Source: Bacteriovorax sp. (GTDB taxonomy: Bacteria; Bdellovibrionota; Bacteriovoracia; Bacteriovoracales; Bacteriovoracaceae). From it: 46,036 nt of DNA. Positions 1,478 to 28,961 of this stretch are shown here, in pieces; position 1 is the stretch's first letter; the number at the start of each line of letters is the position of its first letter. The DNA lies in NCBI GenBank assembly GCA_028710485.1, contig JAQTTZ010000023.1:1-46036 (forward strand). The letters are read 5' to 3'. Below the pieces are notes generated by a model. It was not told where the DNA came from and searched no databases. It worked only from the letters and a program-made list of their open reading frames with translations. A program made the position numbers and the translations under genes.

Positions 1478-4411
1478 ATGATAAAAACTCTACTCCTTTC
1501 CCTATTCATTTTATCTTCAACAACCACTCTTGCTGAAGTCCCCAAAGACCCTGCCCGTGATGCTGCAGAGAAATGGTCAAAACTAATGACTCTTGTTAAT
1601 CGAGAGATTCAAACGATCAAGAATAACAAATACTCCGGACCTGAACTAAAACACCGGTTGTTTGAATTATATTCTGAAAAAATCAAGCTTATCAAAGAAA
1701 AGGAAAACTTAACTTTACTTAAAGCTGATCCTAAGAATGTTGCGAGCAATGGAAAAGATTCTTATTTTAAAGCGTCTCGCGAGCAGTATGTGACTGCTCA
1801 GAAATACGCAATTGCTCTTGTAAAAGAATACCCTCAATACAATCGCATTAGTGAAATTTACTACGCTCTGGCCATCAACTCAAGAGACTATGGAACCAGT
1901 CAGGAAACTGAACAGTTTCTAAAACTCTCCATCAAGTACAGCAAAGATAATTCAACAACAATGTATAATGCCAAAACAGCATTGGCGGAATTTTACTACA
2001 ATAACAAAAAGTACAACGATGCCATCTCGTATTATCAGGACGTCTTAAAAACCAATAATGATGAGTGGTATGGAAAGCACTTGTACAATGCTTCTTGGTG
2101 CTACCTAAAACAGCGCAATTTCAAAAAGGCTCTTGAGCTCATTAAGGAATCATTCGAAACAACTAAAAATAAAAAATACGTTTCAATGAGAGAACAAATC
2201 AATAATGCTATTGGAATTTTTTACGTCCAGGCCGATGCCACCAGAGAAGGGATCGAATTCTATGAAAAGAACACTGCTCCATCAGCGCCGTGGCTCCTCA
2301 CGATGGCATCATCGTCAATGAACAAGAATAACTTCTCTTTAACTGATGAAGTATTAAGAGCAGCACTTAGAGACACCCAAAAAAGAAAAGATACAAATAT
2401 GGAAATGAAGGTCCGTCTTGCTCAGTTGGATATTTACCGCGAAAGTAAAAAGGATGAACTTTATTTCGAAACGGCAAATAACATTCTAGATCTAAATAAG
2501 AAACAAAAACTAGATGCTGACGATCTATTTATGGCGACTAATAAAATTAAAGAAGTTGCCGGATTTATGCAAATAAATTTAGTCAAAGATAAAACGCGCG
2601 AAGAAGTTATTTTCAACAAAGAAGACTATAAAAAGATCATACGATATTTCGATATTCTTTCATCTTTGGATAAGAAAAATAAAAATCAGTACCGCTACTA
2701 TCAAGGGGAAACGGCATTATCAACTCATGATTACCAAACAGCATTGAAGTACTATGTACGAGCAGTAATGAACTCAAAAATTACTAAAGACAAAGGTGAA
2801 GTAACCAGAAAATCTCTGGATGCTATGCTTTCAACCATTGAATTAGCAAAATTAAAAAAACAAAAAGAAGATGAATATACTATCTTTGCTTTCAAGAACT
2901 TTGTTCTAATCTATCCTCAGTCAGATAAGTCTCAGACTATTTACCAAAAGCTTTTTAGTAAATACTATGAACTTCATAAGACTAAAAAAGCTGTAAACAT
3001 TCTTTTAGTTTACAAGCTTAACTACAGAGAAGATGTAAAGATTCACCGTGAAATGTTAACTCAAATCCTCGATACCTATATCAAAGAAAAAAATACAGAC
3101 AAGTTAGCTTACTGGGTAAATAAAATAGAGAAAGGCTACTTAAGTTTTAACTCTGAATATATCCAAAATTCAATCGCCATTTTGGGAGGCCTTCTTTTTG
3201 ACAAGTACCAGGCAATGGAAAAGGTTGGAAAATACAAAGAAGCGATGAAAGGATATGAATCAATCTATGATTCAAAACAATATCCGACAAGGACAAAGGC
3301 AGAAGCGGCCTACGCTATTGCTACTCTTTATCAAGAACAGAATAAAGCAAAAGACTCATACAAATGGCTTAAAAAAAGTTTAGAAATCTATGAAAATAAA
3401 GATTTACTAAAAGTCACTCCGTCACTTTTAGTTTTAGCAAAAGGATACCGACTTCTTCAGAACTTTGAGTTATCTAGTGAATTGGCCAATCAAATTTCAA
3501 AAAGATTTTGTGACGTTGAGTATGTAGGAAAAGATGGTTTTTATGAACTTCTTTTGAGCAACAGCTCAATTGAAGAATCTCAAAGTAATAAGTTAATTAA
3601 ACTAGAAGACGAAAATAAGAAATGTAGTTTGGAAAAGAGATTTGTTGAAAAAACACAAATCGATAATTTCGAGCGTCTTATCTTAAATGATAATATGAAA
3701 GAAATTAATGCCTATTTTCAAGCTCATGCGGAAAACGACAAACTGGCCCGTCAGATGGGGCGTTATTTAAAATTTAAATTCTGGCAAGCTCCTTTGGATT
3801 CTAAAGAAAAAATGAAAAATGAAATTTTGGCCCTAAATGCAGCAACGCCTGCTCTTAACCTCGATGGGATGTTCTCTCAGTATGACCGCGTACTTGAATT
3901 CAGAGAAAAGGCCAATAACTTAAAATTTGAATTCACAGCACTTACAAAATTTGATGATGAAAAGTACAACTCAGAAATGGAGCAGTATTTTTCTATTATC
4001 ACAGAACTCAATAAAGAGGCCGTGGCGCTTTCCAAAGACTCGACCCCAGAAGAAGTAATCCTAATTCGTGGAGTGCTCTCAAATCCATATTATTCATTGG
4101 TAAAAACGATCAATTCATTCATCCCGCAAGGGGTAGATACGAAGTACCTAGAGGGCTTTAAACAGGGAATGCGCCAAATTACTGAGTCACTGACGGCCAA
4201 GGGCCTGCAAGTTGATCGCGAAAAAATGGCATATTTGGAGAAAAATAATTTTTTCTTCGAAGTTCAAAAATATGATAAATTCGAAAACATCAAAGGCAAG
4301 GAAGGCAAAAATGAAGAGGCCCTACAAGTTAGATTACAGAATAATTTAAACTACCATGAGGCCATTCTCTTCTCGAATACTTTAGATTTAAGCAGAGGCC
4401 AACGAAAATGA
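1478..4411 (+). CDS. large exported TPR protein
   Basis: This 977-residue protein opens with a clear signal peptide (MIKTLLLSLFILSSTTTLA), so the long TPR solenoid should be periplasmic. TPR-like units are visible at 'YNDAISYYQDVLKTNNDEWY', 'NFKKALELIKESFETT', 'DYQTALKYYVRAVMNS' and 'KYKEAMKGYESIYD'; the last 250 residues are helical without obvious repeats. An AGGA ribosome site lies in front of the ATG at 1478. The stop overlaps the start of the downstream lipoprotein gene (ATGA at 4408-4411), which implies translational coupling. By context it resembles the large periplasmic TPR scaffolds of gliding or envelope-motor clusters (AgmU/GltD-like in role). That match rests on architecture and neighbours, not on an alignment. 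Confidence 0.75.
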   Translation: MIKTLLLSLFILSSTTTLAEVPKDPARDAAEKWSKLMTLVNREIQTIKNNKYSGPELKHRLFELYSEKIKLIKEKENLTLLKADPKNVASNGKDSYFKASREQYVTAQKYAIALVKEYPQYNRISEIYYALAINSRDYGTSQETEQFLKLSIKYSKDNSTTMYNAKTALAEFYYNNKKYNDAISYYQDVLKTNNDEWYGKHLYNASWCYLKQRNFKKALELIKESFETTKNKKYVSMREQINNAIGIFYVQADATREGIEFYEKNTAPSAPWLLTMASSSMNKNNFSLTDEVLRAALRDTQKRKDTNMEMKVRLAQLDIYRESKKDELYFETANNILDLNKKQKLDADDLFMATNKIKEVAGFMQINLVKDKTREEVIFNKEDYKKIIRYFDILSSLDKKNKNQYRYYQGETALSTHDYQTALKYYVRAVMNSKITKDKGEVTRKSLDAMLSTIELAKLKKQKEDEYTIFAFKNFVLIYPQSDKSQTIYQKLFSKYYELHKTKKAVNILLVYKLNYREDVKIHREMLTQILDTYIKEKNTDKLAYWVNKIEKGYLSFNSEYIQNSIAILGGLLFDKYQAMEKVGKYKEAMKGYESIYDSKQYPTRTKAEAAYAIATLYQEQNKAKDSYKWLKKSLEIYENKDLLKVTPSLLVLAKGYRLLQNFELSSELANQISKRFCDVEYVGKDGFYELLLSNSSIEESQSNKLIKLEDENKKCSLEKRFVEKTQIDNFERLILNDNMKEINAYFQAHAENDKLARQMGRYLKFKFWQAPLDSKEKMKNEILALNAATPALNLDGMFSQYDRVLEFREKANNLKFEFTALTKFDDEKYNSEMEQYFSIITELNKEAVALSKDSTPEEVILIRGVLSNPYYSLVKTINSFIPQGVDTKYLEGFKQGMRQITESLTAKGLQVDREKMAYLEKNNFFFEVQKYDKFENIKGKEGKNEEALQVRLQNNLNYHEAILFSNTLDLSRGQRK

Positions 4412-5283
4412 GAACAGCGATATTTAAAAATTCATTAATCGTAATCTCGGTAATGTTTGTAGGCTGCGCTACTCAAAACTTTAGTAAGAAAATTGAAACT
4501 GCTGATGTGGATCTTTTGAAAGAAGAATCGCTAATGAGATACAATACCACCCGCCTTGAAACAATGGATGGTGCTGAAAGTGATTTTATCTCTAAGGCGC
4601 TACTGGCCTGTCACCAGAAAAAGTTTACCAAGGGCATGGGGATTTTAGAAGTAGAAATGCATAAAAATAAAACTAATCCATTCTACTGGAATGCATTAGG
4701 GACGTGTTACTCGCTTTCAAAAGATTATACGAAAGCCCTTTTTTATTATGACCTGGGAGTGGAAGCGCTACCGATGATTAAAGACCAAAGTAAAGTATTA
4801 GCAGAAGCAACACTCGCTAATAACTTAGGATTGATCCATTTGAATTTTAAACGTTACAACGAAGCTTTTGACTCATTTTCGAGATCAAAAAATTTGCTGC
4901 CAAACTTTTTCACTCCTCAGTTTAATATTGCACAGTTGTTTATAGAATTTAATGAGAATGATAAGGCATTAGAGATTTTAAAGAAGTTAGAAGTAAAAAA
5001 TCCTGACGATATTGATTTACTCTACTCTCTCTCACTTATCTATTTTAGAAAAAATGATTTAGATAAATCTTTTGCGACCATTAAACGCGTAAAAGCAAAT
5101 TACCTGAATCGTCCAGATATCGTAGGTCTTTATGCTTATAACTTAATGAAGAAGAATCGTCTTGCCGAGGCACGTGAGATTATTGAAAAACGCCTCTATG
5201 CAGATGAATATAACCAAAGAAATAAAATTTTGCTCGAAGAAATTAACTTGAAAATAAAAGAACAAGCTAAGTCAGAGAAGTAG
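4408..5283 (+). CDS. TPR lipoprotein
   Basis: The 291-residue product has a short signal peptide ending in a lipobox (MFVGC), so it should be cleaved before Cys20 and lipid-anchored, probably in the outer membrane. The rest carries TPR units, for example 'NPFYWNALGTCYSLSKDYTK', 'NNLGLIHLNFKRYNEAFDSF' and 'PDDIDLLYSLSLIYFRKNDL'. It overlaps the preceding large TPR gene by 4 bases and is followed, after 80 bases, by a TolQ-type gene. In known gliding clusters a TPR lipoprotein (AglT/GltE type) links the periplasmic scaffold to the outer membrane. The same role is inferred here from the lipobox and the gene order. Confidence 0.8.
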   Translation: MRTAIFKNSLIVISVMFVGCATQNFSKKIETADVDLLKEESLMRYNTTRLETMDGAESDFISKALLACHQKKFTKGMGILEVEMHKNKTNPFYWNALGTCYSLSKDYTKALFYYDLGVEALPMIKDQSKVLAEATLANNLGLIHLNFKRYNEAFDSFSRSKNLLPNFFTPQFNIAQLFIEFNENDKALEILKKLEVKNPDDIDLLYSLSLIYFRKNDLDKSFATIKRVKANYLNRPDIVGLYAYNLMKKNRLAEAREIIEKRLYADEYNQRNKILLEEINLKIKEQAKSEK

Positions 5284-24829: not shown

Positions 24830-25666
24830 ATGAATACCACTTTAGCTCGCACAATATTTTTAAAAATATATGAAGACCTTTATCTAGAATATAAGAATAT
24901 AGATAAAAGTCAGGAGGTAATAAAAGAAAAACAGGCCATATGGATTGAAGGTGATCCAAAAATTTCGAAGGCCCTTTTTTTAGCTCACGGATATATGGGT
25001 TCTCCAAGTGAGATGATGTTTTTGGCCCAACCCTTTATCAAAGAAGGCTGGAGTATTATTGGTTTTCTCATTCCTGGTCATGGGTCAAGTTCGAAAGTCG
25101 CCAACGCTTTTAAACGCACTCGCTGGCAAAGTGAAATGTCCGAACAACTCTCGCTGGTCACTTCTACTTTTAGTGAGGTGCGGGCCATTGGATTTTCCAC
25201 CGGTGGACTTTTACTCCACGATTATTTAATTAATCATTCTACTCCCCCAAGTTTAAAAAGCCTTCACTTGATTTCTCCTTATTTCATTCAAAAATTACCC
25301 ACGATTGATTGGCCCATTGAAAAAATTTTCAACAATATTTCGGTGGATGCCGCTTATGCTCTAACCCATTTTCCAGATTTAAAAGTTACGACCATTGATC
25401 GCAATTAAAATCAAAAAACTCGGGCTTGAAGTTTATAAGAGAAAAACAAGGGCGCTAAAATACAGCTCCCAACTCAACTCTTTCTTACAAAAGGCGACTG
25501 GACGGTGGATACCGAAGCTACAAAAAAAGTTCTTACCCGGGACATTGAAAACTACGAATTAATCTGGTTTAACGCTCGGGATCCTCACCACTTAATGGTC
25601 CCTTCGGTGAGCAATGTCGCTCAGGAAATCCAATCTCGAATTTTCAATTTCTGTAAAAATACCTGA
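24830..25666 (+). pseudogene. alpha/beta hydrolase broken by two compensating frameshifts
   Basis: The first part (24830-25408) encodes an alpha/beta hydrolase, with oxyanion region 'LFLAHGYMGSPSEMM' and nucleophile motif GFSTGG, but stops before the rest of the triad. The same frame, after stops at 25406 and nearby, resumes at about 25460 with 'IQLPTQLFLTKGDWTVD' (the acid) and 'DPHHLMVPSVSNVAQEI' (the His), ending at 25666. Between about 25385 and 25460 the homologous-looking text (IAIKIKKLGLEVYKR) is in another frame, so one indel near 25385-25405 and a second at the A run 25457-25460 restore the frame. Net length is near the usual 275 residues. It may be a young pseudogene or an assembly error in A-runs. 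When intact it would be an esterase or lipase-like enzyme. Confidence 0.75.
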
Positions 25667-25718
25667 TAAAACCATTTTTATATCATGTTAAGATGCCAAA
25701 ATCCGATACGAATTAGTG

Positions 25719-28700
25719 ATGAAACGTTTTATTTTAATTTTTTTATTCTTCCTTGTTAACAATTTGAGCAATCTGCTTTTAGCGGAAACATTGTCTTTGC
25801 CCAAAGGAAAAATAGCATCCCCTTATGAAGCATGTAAAAATGTTTTCCTTGTTTCGGAAGATGGTTATCATAAAAATTCAACTAAATGGGATGAGATAGA
25901 ATCTAAATGTAAATCTATTCTTATAGTGGCCCCGGATATTGGATTAACTTCATTAAACCCTTTGCAGGAAGGTGTGAAGTATTTGGAATTTTCCGAAAGA
26001 GTGGCAACAAAAGTTAAAGATAATTTGGAAAAAAGCCGCGGCTATGCTGAATGCACCGCTAGTTGTTTTAAAGGTGCCATAAAATGTTCTTCTAAATCGC
26101 ATGATGAAAAAAAAACGATAGACTGTGTTGAGCGAAAAAATGAAATTTCAGCGGCCCTTAAGGTTTTTAGTCGTAAAATCCGGATGGAGCTAGCTTTAAG
26201 CACTGATGCTCCAGGTTTACTGAACGTCAATATTCGTAATGTTTTGGAAATTTGCAAAGACGAAAAAGCTAATAAAAATAAATTTATAAATTCAAATCTT
26301 CGCGATTTTGAAATTGGAACACCAAACCCAGTAGGAAGAAATAATCTAACAAGATATGAGCTTAGTGAGGCCCATAGAAGAATAGACAGGGAAGTCAAAA
26401 TCCTTGAGGAAGAATACAAAAGTAAAGGCCACACTAATTACTCAGAATGGATGTCAATCAAGTTGATGGATCGATTTGATGAACATAAAGAGCGCTATCG
26501 CCAACTCATCTATGAAGATGCTCCTATTTTTGGAGTCATTGATGATCCCGATAAATTTGATGAAAAAAATAATCCAGTTTGGAGTGATGCTAAAATTTCT
26601 GATGCATTCTTAAAACTTTCAAAAAATGCAAAATTGACCCAGGAAAAAATAGACTGGAGTCTACAAAATGGAAAGCTTGAATTTTCCAGAGGAAATACTG
26701 AGGCCTTACAAAAATGGATGAGCTCTTTTAATGCCGGAAGAAAAGATACAAACGATCTTTTGTTTTATATGGGTATGAAAAACCAAGTGGAAGAAGTTTT
26801 AAAAGATGATCCAGCATCATGTGGTATTGCAACTGCCATGGAAGCTCGTCTTAAAACTAAGGGAATGCAAAACTCAGGAATTACTTTTGCGGCATCTTTA
26901 AGTACTGCATTCGTTGGTAAATTATCTGGGAGTACTTTTAGTATCCTTCGCGCTCTAAGTAGTGCCGAAGTTACAAATACCACAGGTTTAGCTATGGGAG
27001 CTGCTTATTTAGGAGACAGCTTTCGGCAGCTTAATTCTAAAACGACTGAAGCTGCCACGTTCAGTGGAGTTGGTAGAGAAAATGAAGGCAGCAAGATACG
27101 TTCTGCAGAAGAAATTACAACGGCAAGAGAACATCTAAAAATGACCTTAATGTTTTCGCCCTTAGATGTACCTGCTGGATTAGCTCTTGGTAAAAAACTA
27201 ACAGGTCTTGCAACCAATTTAAAAAAAGGTGCCTCTGAGGCAACTCCGGTAAATAAGGAAGCAAGGATCGCATTAAATTCTAAGGCCGCCGTAGAACTTG
27301 AACGCAGATCAAAGGACATCCCACCTTCCAAAATGGGAGAGGTCGTTGAAACCTTAACTCCCTACCAATTTCCAAAAACGATGAGGTTGCGTAAATATAA
27401 AAATGAGGCCGGCGATGAGTTTCTTATGTATGAAAAAGTAGTGAATGACGCCCAAAAAAAGCTCGTTATTCAATCTAGAGAAATGTCGATTGATCCACTT
27501 ACAGGTGCCTTTGATGCTAACTACCCCTCTGGCAAATTATTATTAGAAGACCTAATTAAAGAAAAACAAGGAAAGGCCACATTTGCATTTATTGATGTTA
27601 ATAATTTAGGTTATGTGAATAATAATTTCGTGAAAGGGCGAAATGCGGGAGATGCTTATTTAGCATCTATTGCAAAGGCCATCAATGAGGCCACAAAAGG
27701 AAAGGCACAATTATTTAAACTCGGAGGTGATGAGTTTGGAGTTATTATTCATGAGGCCGATCCAAAAAAAACACAAGCTATTTTACAAAATATAATTGAT
27801 TCTTGTTACTCAAAAGAGGTGCATCTAGGCTTTAGAGAAAATACCATCGCCCGAGCAGAAATGGTCAGGGCCAGTCGCACTGTAGGCAAAGATGGAAAGA
27901 TTACTCCCCTAGACCCGGAAGTAAAAAAATCCATAAAAGATTATGCCTCTTACTCTAGCGAAGGAATATCAATCGGTGCTGTCACAATTAAAAATGGTGA
28001 TAATTACGAAAATTTACTTCACGCCGCTGAAGCTCAAGCAGTGAAGCAAAAAATTGAAACAAAAATAGAACTTAATATCTCTGCTAAAAAATATGGTGGT
28101 CCAGAAGCGATTGACGGGGCCATGCCAAACTTAAAATATAGGCCAGTGGCAGATACACCAACATCTATAGAGAGCTCTCCTCTAGCGACTCGGCCTGAAT
28201 TGAAGTCTCAACCAAATCTAACTTCAGTTACAAATTATGGTGAAGATCGAATTGTTAAAGACAAATATCGCTTTGGAGAAGTTTCAGTGGACGAACACAC
28301 TATGCCTGATGGCTCTCCCATATTAAAATATAACCGCTACTTTAGTGCCGCCGACGGAAATAGACACTACATCACGAGAGAATTAGTCGTTAACACTAAA
28401 GTTGGATTAATTGATGGCTCCCACGAAAGTGGGAAACATATTTTAAATATATTAACTGATGGTAAAAATGCAGTAGAAAATAAAAGAGGCCTGATATGGA
28501 TTAATACTGAAAACTTGGGAAAAATAAATTATTTTAAAAATGGCACGGCAACTGGAGATCAATTATTAGCGGCAACTGCCAAGACACTTGAAAAAGAATT
28601 ACGGGCCGGTGATATACCATTTAAAATGCAAGGTTCGGAATTTGTAATCATTCAAGATGGCATGGCACCTGAAAGTATCGCGCCTCTTGTCTCTAGGTTT

Positions 28701-28961
28701 CGGAATTCTTTAATTAATAATCCGGAAATTAAAAAAATATATTCAGATCAGATGAAGTATATTTCCGAAGAAATTAATAGAGTAAAATCCCTTAGCGCCA
28801 CTGCAGATAATTCAAAAAAACTAGCAGAATTAACTGAAAACTTAAATATGGTTTCTAAAATGAAGCCTGAATTTTCTATTGAAGGACATATGCTTACTGA
28901 AAGAGATAATCTAGACAGTGCCCTAAAAAGTACACGAGGCCTGCATTACGATTCCCATTAG
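25719..28961 (+). CDS. exported protein with tandem GGDEF domains
   Basis: The 1080-residue product starts with a hydrophobic signal (FILIFLFFLVNNLSNLLLA) and has no further convincing membrane helix. The N-terminal 460 residues carry a Cys cluster (Cys112, 116, 123, 136) fit for disulfides, then long helices, with an Ala/Gly-rich hydrophobic stretch near 390-425. Domain 1 (about 585-785) is GGDEF-type: DPLTG at 592, 'FAFIDVNNLGYVNN', GRNAGD and intact GGDEF at 669-673, but no RxxD inhibitory site. Domain 2 (about 880-1030) is degenerate, with QGSEF at 971-975 and Asn for the metal Asp. The start may also be the GTG at 25716. Diguanylate cyclases need cytoplasmic GTP, so the export signal is unexpected. 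A cyclase acting in a target cell, or a GGDEF fold used for binding, are both possible. Confidence 0.8.
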   Translation: MKRFILIFLFFLVNNLSNLLLAETLSLPKGKIASPYEACKNVFLVSEDGYHKNSTKWDEIESKCKSILIVAPDIGLTSLNPLQEGVKYLEFSERVATKVKDNLEKSRGYAECTASCFKGAIKCSSKSHDEKKTIDCVERKNEISAALKVFSRKIRMELALSTDAPGLLNVNIRNVLEICKDEKANKNKFINSNLRDFEIGTPNPVGRNNLTRYELSEAHRRIDREVKILEEEYKSKGHTNYSEWMSIKLMDRFDEHKERYRQLIYEDAPIFGVIDDPDKFDEKNNPVWSDAKISDAFLKLSKNAKLTQEKIDWSLQNGKLEFSRGNTEALQKWMSSFNAGRKDTNDLLFYMGMKNQVEEVLKDDPASCGIATAMEARLKTKGMQNSGITFAASLSTAFVGKLSGSTFSILRALSSAEVTNTTGLAMGAAYLGDSFRQLNSKTTEAATFSGVGRENEGSKIRSAEEITTAREHLKMTLMFSPLDVPAGLALGKKLTGLATNLKKGASEATPVNKEARIALNSKAAVELERRSKDIPPSKMGEVVETLTPYQFPKTMRLRKYKNEAGDEFLMYEKVVNDAQKKLVIQSREMSIDPLTGAFDANYPSGKLLLEDLIKEKQGKATFAFIDVNNLGYVNNNFVKGRNAGDAYLASIAKAINEATKGKAQLFKLGGDEFGVIIHEADPKKTQAILQNIIDSCYSKEVHLGFRENTIARAEMVRASRTVGKDGKITPLDPEVKKSIKDYASYSSEGISIGAVTIKNGDNYENLLHAAEAQAVKQKIETKIELNISAKKYGGPEAIDGAMPNLKYRPVADTPTSIESSPLATRPELKSQPNLTSVTNYGEDRIVKDKYRFGEVSVDEHTMPDGSPILKYNRYFSAADGNRHYITRELVVNTKVGLIDGSHESGKHILNILTDGKNAVENKRGLIWINTENLGKINYFKNGTATGDQLLAATAKTLEKELRAGDIPFKMQGSEFVIIQDGMAPESIAPLVSRFRNSLINNPEIKKIYSDQMKYISEEINRVKSLSATADNSKKLAELTENLNMVSKMKPEFSIEGHMLTERDNLDSALKSTRGLHYDSH

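Follow-up and report, generated by a model that had tools for sequence, protein, structure and literature searches.

To our knowledge, the synthesis of cyclic di-GMP (c-di-GMP) has been treated as a cytoplasmic affair, and GGDEF, the domain of the diguanylate cyclases, is not known as a toxin domain. Membrane-bound diguanylate cyclases are usually laid out as a periplasmic sensor and a second membrane helix. A single chain with one catalytic and one degenerate half is seen in mammalian adenylyl cyclase, with its C1 and C2 halves. Here we analyse a gene that lies at 25719..28961 on the forward strand of a 46,036-nucleotide stretch from Bacteriovorax sp. (assembly GCA_028710485.1, contig JAQTTZ010000023.1, positions 1 to 46,036), the whole of which we call the window. 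Its 1080-residue product starts with a predicted signal peptide and ends in two GGDEF domains, the second of which is degenerate. From sequence comparison we propose, at nearly even chances, that the gene of this predator lineage encodes a Sec-exported protein of effector type, probably active on GTP, in which a catalytic half is paired with a dead one.

Results

The open reading frame at 25719-28961 (+) encodes 1080 residues from an ATG; an alternative GTG at 25716 would yield 1081 residues. Genome G001 (locus L052) holds a relative of equal length (1080 residues, 57% identity), and the codon differences between the two genes fall mostly on third positions in the N-terminal module and in both GGDEF domains alike, by a plain position comparison that is not a selection test. 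Given this relative and the third-position bias, the protein is not a product of chance. An earlier, sequence-only reading of the gene had called for homologues that join the same N-terminal region to GGDEF, and the G001 protein is one. Pfam finds GGDEF in two stretches that score 77.2 bits jointly, and singly the domains reach 44.7 and 33.7 bits, above the curated PF00990 cut-off of 23.8. Ahead of them lie the predicted signal peptide (residues 1-22, 25719..25784, +), an N-terminal module (N-module; residues 23-497, 25785..27209, +) that is helical by eye and common to proteins with other C-terminal parts, and a variable linker (about residues 498-545, 27210..27353, +). Domain 1 occupies 27354..28178 (+), including an N-terminal extension, an insert and a C-terminal KKYGG, and domain 2 occupies 28308..28958 (+). 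Identity to the G001 relative is highest in domain 1 (69%), followed by domain 2 (60%), the N-module (55%) and the linker (24% over residues 501-545).

The two domains differ in their active sites. We take the roles of the metal Asp, of Asn335 and of the other active-site positions to be those in PleD. Domain 1 carries DPLTG at residues 592-596, the metal Asp (Asp 626) within FIDVNNL, Asn 634, Asp 645 and the GGDEF signature at 669-673 (27723..27737, +), and it lacks RxxD; apart from Asn 634 and Asp 645, these features were named in the sequence-only reading. With GG[DE]EF, the metal Asp and the guanine-contact Asn and Asp in place, domain 1 is predicted to be an active diguanylate cyclase. 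Domain 2 is degenerate, as also claimed before; it has QGSEF at 971-975 (28629..28643, +) and INTEN at the place of the metal Asp, and it still holds Asn 937, Asp 947 and, missed by the earlier reading, RAGD at 962-965. Because the metal and catalytic Asp are lost and the guanine contacts are kept, domain 2 probably holds nucleotide or regulates, and perhaps it is the dead half of an intramolecular pseudo-dimer.

This division recurs in a family. A domain profile (9 rows, E <= 1e-15, at most 6 candidates scored per genome) matched 22 of 368 Bdellovibrionota genomes. One match, in G294 (L078), is an ordinary GGDEF protein without a signal and was dropped, leaving a family of 21 putatively exported GGDEF proteins, one in each of 21 genomes that represent 11 genera and 8 families. 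In all 21 single or first domains, from eight families, the metal Asp, D370 and E371 are kept, and these residues belong to just 10 invariant columns of 186; the metal Asp and D370 are lost in all 8 second domains of the tandem proteins. Asn at +8 from the metal position is found in 13/13 single, 6/8 first and 8/8 second domains, and Lys442 in 8/8 tandem first domains. RxxD occurs in 24/24 control domains from ordinary GGDEF proteins, in 10/13 single and 4/8 second domains, and in none of the 8 tandem first domains. It had been considered earlier that the GGDEF fold is reused for binding only. An extracytoplasmic protein of this kind would be a non-catalytic binder of guanine nucleotides or c-di-GMP, for example as a sensor or scavenger of nucleotides released by prey; a source of GTP beyond the cytoplasm is not known, and the second domains, which keep guanine contacts after loss of the metal and catalytic Asp in every case, indicate that binding alone can persist in the family. 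However, the unbroken retention of metal and catalytic residues in the single and first domains disfavours mere binding for domain 1, and we regard a binding protein as unlikely.

In the excerpted text of PMC9140294, Asp at position 344 marks strict makers of c-di-GMP, and Ser or Thr marks the promiscuous Hypr enzymes. All 29 domains of the family have Asp here, so GTP is the predicted substrate. Among the 24 controls, which are matches of the window protein in related genomes, many from one ortholog group, and not a census, Asp is found in 6, Ser or Thr in 17 and Gly in 1. Apart from the family itself, the 17 Ser/Thr domains suggest that Hypr-type enzymes may occur frequently in these lineages.

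Where would such a protein act? The sequence-only reading had noted a signal peptide, a Cys-rich N-terminal part and no other clear membrane helix, and on these points it holds. The protein begins MKRFILIFLFFLVNNLSNLLLA, followed by ETL after the candidate cleavage site (LLA before ETL), and basic residues precede the hydrophobic stretch. Beyond the signal no 19-residue window attains a mean hydropathy of 1.6; the strongest inner window (1.08, at residue 473) includes one Asp and two Lys. Cysteines stand at positions 39, 64, 112, 116, 123, 136, 179, 368 and 696, and seven of them (39, 64, 112, 116, 123, 136 and 368) are invariant in the 4/4 aligned N-modules. Signals were called by our own scripts, with a hydropathy threshold and no trained predictor, and by a loose cleavage rule that finds at least one site in 19/19 proteins computed. 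A signal-like start is seen in 20/20 family members with a visible N-terminus (19 by script, G226 by eye and script); the remaining member, G362, is cut by a contig end. A 19-residue window of at least 1.6 lies inside the first 40 residues in 16 of these 20, and none is found anywhere in 26 ordinary GGDEF proteins of related genomes (of 28 control loci, L010 and L018 gave no frame, and the frame of L027, counted here, is doubtful). The comparison favours signals in the family, since the family script picks a start codon before the hydrophobic peak, with Lys or Arg after it where possible, and the control script took the whole open frame; by a 12-residue measure the ranges touch (1.82-3.80 in the family, up to 1.87 in the controls). 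In G355, G195 and G218, members of the same clade as the window protein, GGDEF follows soon after the signal and there is no second hydrophobic stretch (inner maximum <=0.63). The inner maximum of the G001 relative, 1.32, we call weak. Given the signal-like starts of the family, their absence from the controls and the invariant cysteines, we infer that the window protein is probably exported by Sec; 7/20 relatives could have a second membrane helix. A simple N-terminal anchor was considered for the window protein and is unlikely, as the basic residues precede its only strong hydrophobic stretch.

The family is spread patchily over the phylum (21/368 genomes), and in the window's class 9/129 genomes match at 1e-20. 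A tree of 53 domains separates the 29 of the family from the 24 controls with support of 100/100. The eight tandem first domains form one group (99/99) and the eight second domains another, weaker one (90/77), and the 13 single domains do not form one group. The tandem pair with its decayed second copy is present in three families (f1, f6 and f19); the simplest account would be one old duplication followed by decay of the second copy. Outside the phylum, the GGDEF protein was compared with plasmids, and a scan of genome contigs served the N-module. The full window protein matches 1256 plasmid records and one single-domain relative matches 290, none of which covers 80% of the query; the annotated matches among those listed (best 20 of 1256, best 8 of 290) are GGDEF, EAL or diguanylate cyclase proteins.

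The N-module is not bound to GGDEF. Proteins of G008 (683 residues) and G013 (681 residues) carry residues 23-497 of the window protein at 55-56% identity, followed by a tail of about 190 residues, helical by eye, that replaces the GGDEF pair. A profile of the N-module gives 16 matches at E <= 0.001 among the 368 phylum genomes, several of them weak. Nine proteins were read from the 12 matching genomes beyond the first four (L141-L148 and G029; three among L141-L148 are cut at the locus end), and they have other C-terminal parts, none of which we recognise. The named carriers of this N-module are Bacteriovoracaceae and Bacteriovorax metagenome-assembled genomes. The window's own genome holds, on contig 215 (L035 3-1178, +), a second, partial copy of the N-module (47%) with the alternative tail type of about 190 residues; this copy may derive from another strain, and the assembly is rated 8% contaminated.

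In hhalign comparisons the window N-module matches only the G029 protein, which has no GGDEF (about 92%), and a second match joins the modules of g62 and G226 (about 80%). The remaining pairs give no match, so that between different exported-GGDEF lineages the N-modules are mostly without recognisable homology. G115, a near copy of G109, was omitted from one N-module alignment. Two further N-module types, that of g62 and G239 and that of the tandem proteins of f6, are found in other proteins with signal-like starts as well. L111 carries the g62/G239 type (profile E 7e-7; BLASTP to G239 5e-6), L126 and L129 carry the f6 type (profile 3e-13 and 2e-10), and the three share a C-terminal domain (BLASTP 3e-15 and 1e-23, E-values from a small set). 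On plasmids, the L111 domain matches seven records, six unnamed proteins and one Janthinobacterium protein named as RHS repeat-associated (41% over 63 residues, 1e-5). Given this match to part of an RHS protein, scaffold types that bear exported GGDEF also bear a domain of the polymorphic-toxin kind. Besides GGDEF, no family lies above cut-off in the N-modules, tails and sister scaffolds in Pfam, NCBIfam and PADLOC, and the tail of L110 has no match. By eye, and with no Pfam match above cut-off, the sister scaffolds end in a kinase-like part (L117), HExxH (L119, L135) or a DHH-like part (L139). Another f6-type scaffold, L151 (frame 1595-5137, reverse complement), has at its C-terminus VAVDVQGLG and YQSGDDALILI, which by eye look like a very divergent GGDEF.

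Module shuffling and the RHS link lend support to a possible offensive role of the family. A different reading of the same scaffolds is that the protein remains in the periplasm or on the surface of the predator itself, enzymatic or structural and with no role in prey. A signal peptide alone leads only to the periplasm, and the alternative tails of the window's N-module appear structural by eye; yet GTP is not expected there, and the exchangeable C-terminal parts, together with an RHS-type payload that sister scaffolds carry, suggest a repertoire for offence. We regard a purely periplasmic or surface function as distinctly unlikely.

The window is contig 59 in a 4.3-Mb assembly of 234 contigs. 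Upstream of the gene lies an alpha/beta hydrolase gene, and ABC transporter genes finish about 2.6 kb upstream; downstream follow a hexapeptide transferase gene on the opposite strand and a MATE transporter gene. The hydrolase frame (24830-25665, +) stops at 192 residues, against 297 in the G002 relative; the gene looks broken, as the bases after the stop resemble by eye the missing part. The G001 relative lies between photolyase and OsmC-like genes (by eye). At the matching place of G002 a 49-residue remnant of the C-terminus of an exported GGDEF protein (L009 348-497, -) stands beside photolyase and hydrolase genes, and nothing else of the gene is left. The window's genome holds two further GGDEF proteins, both of which lack a signal-like start. 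Two g62 genomes encode, ahead of the exported GGDEF gene and overlapping it by 8 bases, a small protein of about 128 residues that has a signal-like start (L091 6231-6617, +; L101 6865-7254, +). These small proteins are 50% identical to each other, and each is a possible partner of the exported GGDEF protein.

Discussion

The export-type build of the protein and its relatives across the phylum suggest that the enzyme may work outside the cell or inside prey. The protein would be exported by Sec, folded with disulfides and released towards prey, with the N-module as a Cys-rich scaffold and the tandem GGDEF unit as payload. Domain 1, having its metal, catalytic and guanine-contact residues, would use GTP, and the site of action would be outside the predator cytoplasm where prey GTP is accessible, namely the prey cell or an opened prey compartment. 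If the working unit is the pair of domain 1 and domain 2, just one of the two c-di-GMP bonds would be made and the product would be a linear guanine dinucleotide; if the first domains of two molecules meet, c-di-GMP would result. More broadly, it is conceivable, though we hold it to be rather doubtful, that Bdellovibrionota use exported nucleotide cyclases as prey-directed effectors, which would, once delivered, convert the GTP of the prey to c-di-GMP or to a linear guanine dinucleotide and thereby hijack the prey's second-messenger circuits or drain its GTP. The sequence-only reading had raised a c-di-GMP synthase delivered into another cell, attractive if the organism is a predator. Named relatives place the host in the Bacteriovoracaceae lineage, and module shuffling lends support to delivery as a possibility.

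Several observations speak against an exported, active enzyme. Two of the first domains carry Ser in place of the Asn, and Arg446 is replaced by Lys, Ala or Thr in all 8 first domains. The RHS-type payload is found on other N-module types and none was found on the window's own type, whose other tails match no known family. In the closest relative, from G001, the first 12 residues include neither Lys nor Arg. A second window of at least 1.6 lies between signal and GGDEF in 7/20 relatives (G133, G123, G239, G223, G198, G153 and G230), and the second hydrophobic window of G110 is at the threshold. A membrane helix at such a stretch would bring GGDEF back to the cytoplasmic side, which is the layout of sensor-type cyclases. 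Could the GGDEF domains of the window protein be cytoplasmic too, either because the N-terminus is an anchor or because the N-module is a periplasmic sensor with a second membrane helix? GTP is in the cytoplasm and the GTP-using GGDEF enzymes are otherwise cytoplasmic. The charged, weakly hydrophobic inner window of the protein and the three relatives without a second stretch argue otherwise, and the basic residues ahead of the signal stretch favour a C-terminus outside. We therefore consider a cytoplasmic location quite improbable. Of the earlier claims on topology, a position of GGDEF outside the cytoplasm gains from the signal-like starts and the invariant cysteines and loses from the seven relatives with a second window; these same relatives keep alive the earlier alternative of an anchor mistaken for a signal, which for the window protein itself is unlikely.

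If export and activity are borne out, c-di-GMP chemistry would gain a new site through a clade of exported GGDEF domains with intact active sites that extends over a phylum of predators and their kin, and it might also gain a new purpose, in which a second messenger serves for attack. The pair of an active and a dead domain, being conserved, offers a case in which an asymmetric GGDEF unit can be tested. Asp throughout the exported domains, as against Ser or Thr in most of the cytoplasmic controls, suggests a different substrate choice for export and for the cell's own signalling.

The sequence-only reading knew of no described system with this arrangement. Our literature searches by phrase found no exported, periplasmic, secreted, extracellular or extracytoplasmic GGDEF and no fitting title among the matches listed, and 'secreted diguanylate cyclase' is absent among the matches listed on translocated diguanylate cyclase effectors. 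A combined search on toxins and cyclic dinucleotides likewise gave no paper. To this extent the claim stands; the protein is no isolated oddity, however, and belongs to a phylum-wide family with an old pair of active and dead domains.

Among known systems, the diguanylate cyclases (PF00990; structures of DosC, TpbB and WspR) share with the family the domain, GG[DE]EF, the metal Asp and the guanine-contact Asn and Asp. Unlike them, the family has a signal-like start, an extra N-terminal extension and an insert, forms a separate clade and has Leu-Gly after DxDx where the controls mostly have Phe-Lys. The Hypr GGDEF enzymes, such as Bd0367 of Bdellovibrio in the excerpted text of PMC9140294, where its export is not mentioned, are GGDEF enzymes of the same phylum; they have Ser or Thr at position 344, whereas the family domains have Asp and are thus not of the Hypr kind by this residue. 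Like polymorphic toxins (RHS and similar), the family combines a predicted export signal with N-modules joined to exchangeable C-terminal parts. Unlike them, the window protein has no RHS, contact-dependent inhibition (CDI), type VI secretion system (T6SS) or known toxin domain, only GGDEF being found, and the window has no adjacent immunity-like gene, the next gene being the hexapeptide transferase on the other strand. By analogy only, as domain family and product are different, the tandem GGDEF unit repeats the layout of adenylyl cyclase C1/C2, a catalytic and a degenerate half in one chain.

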